From contig CAIMEE010000254.1 of NCBI GenBank assembly GCA_903839865.1, positions 1-37,804 of the forward strand: a stretch of 37,804 nucleotides of DNA. The letters run 5' to 3'. Below the pieces are notes generated by a model that had not been told where the DNA came from, made no database searches, and was given only the letters and a program-made list of their open reading frames with translations. The translations under genes and the position numbers were made by a program. Positions 32,690-33,472 of this stretch are shown here, piece after piece (position 1 is the first letter of the stretch; the number at the start of each line of letters is the position of its first letter). This DNA is from Enhydrobacter aerosaccus (lineage in GTDB: Bacteria; Pseudomonadota; Alphaproteobacteria; Reyranellales; Reyranellaceae).

Positions 32690-33376
32690 ATGGACCGCCC
32701 CGAAGATCGACCCGAATGGCGCATTTCCGACACGCCCGTGCCTTACGATGAGGCTCTCGCGGCGATGGAAGCACGTGTCGCCGAGATCCGGTCGGGCCAT
32801 GCACGCGAGCTGATCTGGCTGCTCGAGCATCCGCCGCTCTACACCGCCGGCACCAGTGCCAAGGATCGTGACCTTCTGCAGCCCGCGCGCTTTCCGGTCC
32901 ATGTCGCGGGACGCGGCGGCCAATACACCTATCACGGCCCCGGCCAGCGGGTGGCCTATGTGATGCTCGACCTGCGCCGCCGCCGCCAGGACGTGCGGCG
33001 CTTCGTGTCCGACCTCGAGGAATGGACCATCCGCACCCTCGCCCGCTTCGCCGTCACCGCCGAGCGCCGCCCTGGCCGGGTCGGCGTCTGGGTGACGCGG
33101 CCGGACAAGCCGGCCCTGTTCGACGGCAGCCCGCGCGAGGACAAGATCGCGGCGATCGGCGTCCGCATTCGTCACTGGGTCTCGTTCCACGGCATCTCGA
33201 TTAACGTCGAACCCGACCTTGCCCACTACGACGGCATCGTGCCCTGCGGCATCGCGGGCCATGGCGTCACCTCGCTGGTCGATCTCGGCCTGCCGGTGAC
33301 CCTGGCCGATCTCGACGTGGCGCTGGCCGAGACGTTCGACCAGGGGTTCGAAGTTTTGACCCCATCCCCCGCGTAA
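32690..33376 (+). CDS. lipB: Octanoyl-[ACP]:protein N-octanoyltransferase
   Basis: LipB moves octanoate from acyl carrier protein to a Lys on lipoyl domains, the first step in lipoate attachment. The 228 residues have [20 protein letters not shown], Lys152 ([10 protein letters not shown]) and the catalytic Cys186 in [19 protein letters not shown]. The ATG at 32690 gives a normal N-terminus, but no good ribosome site is seen. The last seven or so codons and the TAA stop lie inside a REP-like repeat, so the C-terminal residues (LTPSPA) probably come from the repeat and not from the ancestral gene. Confidence 0.95.
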
Positions 33377-33472
33377 GACGCGGGTACTTCCCCATAAGAA
33401 TGGGGAAGGAAAGCTAACCCTCCCCATTCTTATGGGGAGGTGTCGGCGTCTTACGCCGACGGAGGGGGTCAA
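33356..33472. repeat. Pair of inverted REP-like units between lipB and acylphosphatase
   Basis: Two related units of about 54 bases face each other, 33356-33409 and 33418-33472, with 8 bases between. Read from its outer end, each has TTGACCCC, then a small hairpin around GCGTAAGACGC, then the hairpin CCCCAT-AAGA-ATGGGG. Both hairpins are almost identical in the two units; the flanks of the small hairpin differ (CCCGCG versus GTCGGCG). This is the layout of bacterial REP doublets, and the whole could fold into one long cruciform or act as a two-way terminator. The lipB stop (in the GCGTAA of the left unit) and the acylphosphatase stop (in the TTGACC of the right unit) both lie within it. Confidence 0.85.

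Follow-up and report, generated by a model that had tools for sequence, protein, structure and literature searches.

A REP/BIME-like inverted palindromic doublet between lipB and acyP belongs to a repeat family all but confined to Reyranella

The window (the whole stretch of DNA analysed, 37.8 kb) carries lipB and acyP as a convergent pair with an inverted palindromic doublet at their 3' ends (Table 1). Profile scores agreed with the gene names given in the preliminary description, and both stop codons were found where it had placed them, one in each unit of the doublet. The lipB ORF is closed by a TAA within CCCGCGTAAGACGCGGG (the TAA of GCGTAAGACGC) and the acyP ORF, on the opposite strand, by a TGA (TCA on the + strand) within GGGGGTCAA. 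The LipB C-terminus reads FEV followed by LTPSPA, and both LTPSPA and the TAA are encoded by the repeat. The acyP product ends in RLPTA-TGA, as in many relatives.

Table 1. Coordinates of the genes, stop codons and repeat parts at the lipB-acyP junction of the window.
Feature	Position	Strand	Basis
lipB, lipoyl(octanoyl) transferase, 228 aa	32690..33376	+	ORF; LipB 357 bits
acyP, acylphosphatase, 93 aa	33469..33750	-	ORF; acylphosphatase 83.6 bits
lipB tail LTPSPA and stop, encoded by the repeat	33356..33376	+	ORF; ends of relatives
lipB stop codon TAA, repeat-derived	33374..33376	+	ORF; ends of relatives
acyP stop codon (TGA) at its ancestral position, flush with the type A outer end	33469..33471	-	ORF; ends of relatives
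Whole inverted doublet (type B unit facing type A unit)	33356..33472	.	Inverted repeat, fold, covariance model matches
Type B unit (left): outer end TGACCCCATC, hairpin 1, hairpin 2 CTTCCCC..GGGGAAG	33357..33408	-	67.8 bits to model R1
Hairpin 1 of type B unit, CCCGCGTAAGACGCGGG, contains the lipB TAA	33368..33384	+	Sequence; the homologous hairpin covaries
Hairpin 2 of type B unit	33387..33408	+	Sequence
Type A unit (right): hairpin 2 CCTCCCC..GGGGAGG, hairpin 1, outer end CGGAGGGGGTCA	33419..33471	+	74.1 bits to model R1
Hairpin 2 of type A unit; weak terminator-like match on the - strand	33419..33440	+	Sequence; terminator scan
Hairpin 1 of type A unit, GTCGGCGTCTTACGCCGAC	33442..33460	+	Sequence; covariation

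The doublet had been described as two units with nearly identical hairpins facing each other, each with two internal hairpins and a conserved outer end. This anatomy and its position held, with the refinement that the two units are of different types, A and B. An inverted repeat search showed arms at 33360-33409 and 33418-33467 that were 80% complementary around a spacer of 8 nt. Each unit is approximately 52 nt long and has two hairpins and TGACCCC at its outer end; both halves end outward in TTGACCCC, and the termini of the doublet are perfect 8-nt inverted ends (TTGACCCC..GGGGTCAA). Hairpin 2 of the right unit is of type A (CGGAGGGGTCA) and that of the left unit of type B (GATGGGGTCA). The single-strand fold of the 117-nt doublet reached -85.4 kcal/mol on the + strand and -86.1 kcal/mol on the - strand (z -11.2 and -12.3, respectively), and none of 200 dinucleotide shuffles was as stable on either strand. 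A covariance model matched the type A unit with an E value of 9.4e-19 and the type B unit, itself one of the 39 sequences inside the model, with 4.8e-17; the sole further match in the window up to E 10 had an E value of 0.18. A tRNA was the only Rfam detection in the window at gathering thresholds, and no match of the doublet to plasmid records was found.

A BLAST search of the window's own genome with one unit produced eight matches, the two window units included. The assembly has 5.5 Mb in 622 contigs with a completeness of 100 and a contamination of 7.46. The covariance model built from 39 units detected at least 28 units (E < 1e-3) at 16 sites, a lower bound because 150 of the 4095 first-look candidates were scored. 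These sites (at least 16) comprised 12 doublets, eight in +- order and four in -+ order like that of the window, and four singlets. The search of the whole genome suggested in the preliminary description thus returned a dispersed repeat in which doublets prevail. In the genus, a strict type A pattern gave 2701 matches in 58 of 61 genomes (the window's own included), each genome having between 0 and 306; a reversed version of the pattern, used as control, gave none in the 61 genomes. The type B pattern was present in 34 of the 61 genomes, and in the window's own genome the left unit of the doublet was the sole strict type B match. In a class sample of 289 genomes, one of the 286 genomes outside Reyranella had a strict type A match, as a single copy, and a general distribution across Alphaproteobacteria was rejected for this pattern.

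Alignment of the 39 units showed that 97.6% of the cells in stem positions were paired. Cells changed on both sides numbered 53, compared to 10.3 in shuffles, and none of 500 shuffles reached as many; sliding the stem partners lowered the pairing to 42-59%. Types A and B themselves differ by a compensated pair in hairpin 2, which is C-G in 36 units and T-A in the three type B units. The family has the properties by which REPs are recognised, namely many extragenic copies of a short palindrome, compensatory changes in the stems and a position predominantly after genes. It also shares with BIMEs the alternating orientation of two unit types, seen as A/B pairs and as one array of four units at L236; the window pair is B/A. 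The doublet represents one copy of a palindromic, non-coding repeat family of REP/BIME-like character, almost restricted to Reyranella. No published description of this family was found in the open-licence literature.

Placement relative to genes was read in 104 clusters from 60 stretches of genomes G042 and G022 plus other loci, excluding duplicate clusters and clusters near N; these loci were drawn by a pattern requiring one TCA end, which biases the sample. Among the 60 clusters with both flanking genes confidently called, 33 lay between tandem genes, 27 between convergent genes and none between divergent genes, and without the confidence filter the 102 clusters were divided into 53, 47 and two, respectively. 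The codon model behind these gene calls had been trained on the window, so individual calls may be in error. Gene ends with a score or margin below 15 were dropped, among them acyP itself (margin 6) and those at L148 and L166, which both use the TGA of the repeat. Hairpin-2 ends next to confidently called genes lay at a median of 9 nt past the stop codon, 79 of 90 within 30 nt. As for the unit order, 58 of the 104 clusters were pairs with hairpin 2 outside and 19 had the order of the window; these counts and those of A/B pairs are approximate, since seven of 184 units look mis-segmented (e.g. at L234 and L236, otherwise read as -A+A and -+-+).

A lipB match was found in 58 of the 61 genomes and 50 junctions were read; four had no acyP in the stretch and 46 were scored, the window genome (G000) included. 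In 32 of these, lipB and acyP are convergent and overlap by exactly 23 nt with nothing between them, and 14 have an insert, of about five kinds. Inserts of this repeat family were recognised by eye in the window genome and, as another doublet in the other order, in G014 and G020. Other palindromes (G024, G033, G040, G046) and ParDE-type toxin-antitoxin genes (G009, G042, G044, G047, G054; by Pfam for the G044 pair) were likewise assigned by eye. G001 has a thioesterase gene between lipB and acyP, and G028 a thioesterase and a GST gene. The junction (L097-L146) is a recurrent insertion place. In G001, G014, G020 and G028 both genes keep ends of the ancestral type around the insert, a state that resembles duplication of the 23-nt overlap. 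The toxin-antitoxin genes lie at L105, L116, L117, L120 and L142 (identified as ParE/ParD by Pfam at L116 and by resemblance at the other loci), and the lipB beside them ends in MAL or IAL, with another tail in L142.

The preliminary description had proposed that an insertion replaced both gene ends, and this stood for lipB and not for acyP. The LipB product ends exactly in RPSAAA in 22 of the 46 genomes and has PS within its last six residues in 13 more, that of the window included, where the end is LTPSPA-TAA. The stop codon of acyP is TGA in 44 of the 46 scored genomes and many relatives have the same RLPTA end, so there is no sign of replacement on this side. Judged against these relatives, the acyP end is ancestral and lipB alone has a new ending.

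The doublet is probably a copy of the REP/BIME-like family that was placed after the genes, separating lipB from acyP, with lipB gaining an end encoded by the repeat. It lies where most scored relatives have lipB and acyP overlapping convergently, and it may occupy a scar left by the loss of a thioesterase gene that the two nearest relatives carry at this place. Inward reading of the outer end gives TGA, and that of the hairpin-1 loop often gives TAA or TGA, so that a gene joined to the outer end can meet a stop either immediately or a few codons later. Thus acyP retains the ancestral TGA, which is flush with the repeat, and lipB gains LTPSPA-TAA; flush insertions would be tolerated because the repeat supplies a stop. 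The repeat itself would move by transposition, and its stable stems could act at the RNA level as a two-way 3' boundary, through mRNA stabilisation or pausing of Rho-dependent transcription or of ribosomes.

A different history, compatible with this explanation, is that the thioesterase gene and the lipB tail were lost, perhaps by repeat-mediated recombination, and the doublet was left behind. In a tree of two genes, the window genome is sister to G028 with a support of 0.94 and both group with G001 with 0.998. As G028 and G001 have the thioesterase in common, the ancestor of the window genome may have carried it as well, and among the three genomes the RPSAAA tail was lost in the window genome alone. 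The doublet may thus mark a deletion scar and not a clean insertion into the 23-nt overlap, and the thioesterase common to the two nearest relatives raises the scar to about the same likelihood as insertion into the overlap. However, no unit was seen beside the thioesterase in the junctions of G028 (700 of 1199 nt) and G001, the thioesterase may have gone before the doublet arrived, and the relationship comes from a single tree of two genes. Loss of the thioesterase and lipB tail with the doublet left in place is a tentative but quite possible history.

Stop codons supplied by the repeat were also read at other loci. At a locus read in 30 genomes, which from the look of the sequence we take to be an acyl-CoA dehydrogenase gene, all six carriers of a -+ doublet end in LGL-TGA, the TGA being the end of the repeat. 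In the other 24 genomes the stop is TGA in three and TAA or TAG in 21 (Fisher p 1.4e-4, among related genomes in which the six carriers represent at most a few events). G046, one of the 24, has the family in +- order there and retains TAA. At the C454 site of the window's own genome, a gene that is presumably an FMN-dependent oxidase, again from the look of the sequence, is closed by the TGA of the repeat; the two nearest relatives, 98 and 95% identical, lack the repeat and end in TAG, and the stop is TGA in 17 of 29 relatives read. Across the placement sample, the TGA of the repeat was the stop at three of 22 confidently called outer ends, so that stop supply is occasional; lipB of the window, among the 22, stops further inside the repeat.

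Across 145 units read inward, the two frames besides the TGA frame contain a stop in 48% and 41% of cases, and outward reading gives a stop in 6-10% per frame, compared to 29% in mononucleotide shuffles; the units are related by descent and these percentages are not independent samples. The commonest hairpin-1 loops in inward reading were TAAGA (41) and TATGA (30). The outer end could be conceived as a portable stop-codon cassette, a terminal TGA plus the TAA or TGA of the hairpin-1 loop, maintained by selection because it allows the repeat to land flush with host stops or even to take their place, and the insertion machinery may even favour stop-codon positions. We consider such a selected cassette doubtful.

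Of four G042 sites that aligned to stretches of G015, two proved empty in G015, a third was occupied by another palindrome and the fourth by a repeat copy that had diverged. Inspection of the two empty sites by eye revealed no target duplication. A different palindromic element of G015 (L244:1000-1150 vs L256) occupies the intergenic place of a G042 doublet. From such sequence comparisons, presence and absence at lipB-acyP and at the two G042 sites, together with the wide range of copy numbers, speak for spread of the repeat.

The preliminary description had further suggested that the element is moved by a REP-associated tyrosine transposase (RAYT), that is, that it is a canonical REP/BIME. 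The inverted pairs of two unit types, their placement after genes and the covarying stems are consistent with this, and the gene at L177:1420-1983 (among loci L176-L187), the one Y1_Tnp gene tested, is of the RAYT type (NF047646, 94 bits). Y1_Tnp matches were present in 31 of the 61 genus genomes, which had a median of 29 copies of the repeat compared to 13.5 in those without (p 0.008, a weak difference uncorrected for kinship). However, the search for a RAYT gene in the window's own genome found no Y1_Tnp in the 622 contigs, and none of the 12 Y1_Tnp loci of relatives that were read, among the 53 matches listed, had a unit beside the gene by fuzzy pattern or covariance model. G006 (82% complete) has 306 copies and G042 (99% complete) 57 copies, neither with Y1_Tnp, and the GTAG tag is absent from the repeat. 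Given the higher copy number in genomes with Y1_Tnp, the enzyme may act on the repeat in trans. The suggestion as made in the preliminary description found no support, and a canonical RAYT-mobilised REP/BIME is considered unlikely.

The family was compared with known repeat systems. According to Di Nocera et al. (2013, PMC3733652), the termini of GTAG REPs often supply the stop codon (TAG) of flanking ORFs, REPs adjoin 3' ends with frequent heterodimers, and CGTC REPs are without associated transposase genes. Like GTAG and CGTC REPs as described there, the Reyranella family consists of short covarying palindromes in many copies, forms inverted dimers or heterodimers and lies between tandem and convergent genes near 3' ends (PMC3733652). 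In contrast to them, its outer end is TGACCCC with no GTAG or CGTC tag, its unit has two hairpins and approximately 52 nt compared to 20-40, and it supplies TGA where GTAG REPs supply TAG (PMC3733652). It also differs from them in its near-restriction to a single genus among the genomes searched. No GTAG or CTAC was found within 33356-33472, GGAG being present only in the hairpin-2 arm and CGGAGGGGGTCA, and the RAYT gene flanked by repeats that marks GTAG REPs was not seen at the 12 Y1_Tnp loci read. An unpaired CGTC, TGTC or CCTC tag with an A-T stem start and a short tail, as in CGTC REPs, was not found in the doublet; the outer ends are TTGACCCC and the sole + strand CGTC lies inside hairpin 1.

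Nunvar et al. (2010, PMC2817692) report that rayt genes are always flanked by two REPs. The alternation of two unit types, with one four-unit array, resembles Escherichia coli BIMEs and RAYT-associated REPs, but the 12 Reyranella Y1_Tnp loci are without an adjoining unit (PMC2817692). Caulobacter CIR are summarised in a review (PMC2229807) as alpha-proteobacterial intergenic repeats of approximately 110 bp with long stem-loops and a GANTC methylation site. By that description the doublet is alike in being intergenic and having long stem-loops, but it has no GANTC site (PMC2229807). A link to CcrM/CIR was accordingly not supported. The RepRanger study (PMC12306157) associates E. coli REPs located no more than 15 nt from a stop codon with stalled ribosomes and reduced translation. 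The Reyranella units are similarly close to stop codons, but in the window doublet the stop either opens the repeat as its first codon (acyP) or falls within a hairpin (lipB).

A MITE with fixed terminal inverted repeats TTGACCCC..GGGGTCAA would account for the perfect ends of the window doublet, but it is largely refuted and highly improbable, since both unit orders occur and the doublet ends are therefore variable; nor did the two empty sites show a target duplication by eye, although the overlap looks duplicated in G014 and G020. A plain bidirectional transcription terminator that evolved in place would suit the convergent genes, the very stable stems and two weak terminator-like matches on the - strand (0.1 in shuffles), but with no match on the + strand, a unit dispersed over 16 sites in the window's own genome and up to 306 strict copies elsewhere, and no doublet at the junction of most scored relatives, it is also very unlikely.

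The Reyranella family behaves as known REPs do, but with a new end (TGACCCC) and a two-hairpin unit. It is rated as a variant of REPs and not as unprecedented because stop supply, 3' placement, heterodimers and transposase-free CGTC REPs were already reported by Di Nocera et al. (PMC3733652). The family speaks to the question of how REPs spread without an associated RAYT, and with 0-306 strict copies between species and both occupied and empty junctions Reyranella is a tractable genus for finding the mobiliser. How repeats of this kind can reshape the ends of genes is seen in the stop codons of carriers. The lipB-acyP junction and the acyl-CoA dehydrogenase gene end hold different palindromes in different species, which raises the question of whether gene 3' ends receive such repeats neutrally or benefit from gaining a hairpin. 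The short intercistronic site after the acyl-CoA dehydrogenase-like gene (L324-L353) is empty in five of the 30 genomes, with 3 to 10 nt from stop to ATG, and most other genomes have one of several palindromic repeat types there, including a GTCGTCCTGAGCG-type that resembles CGTC REPs by eye.
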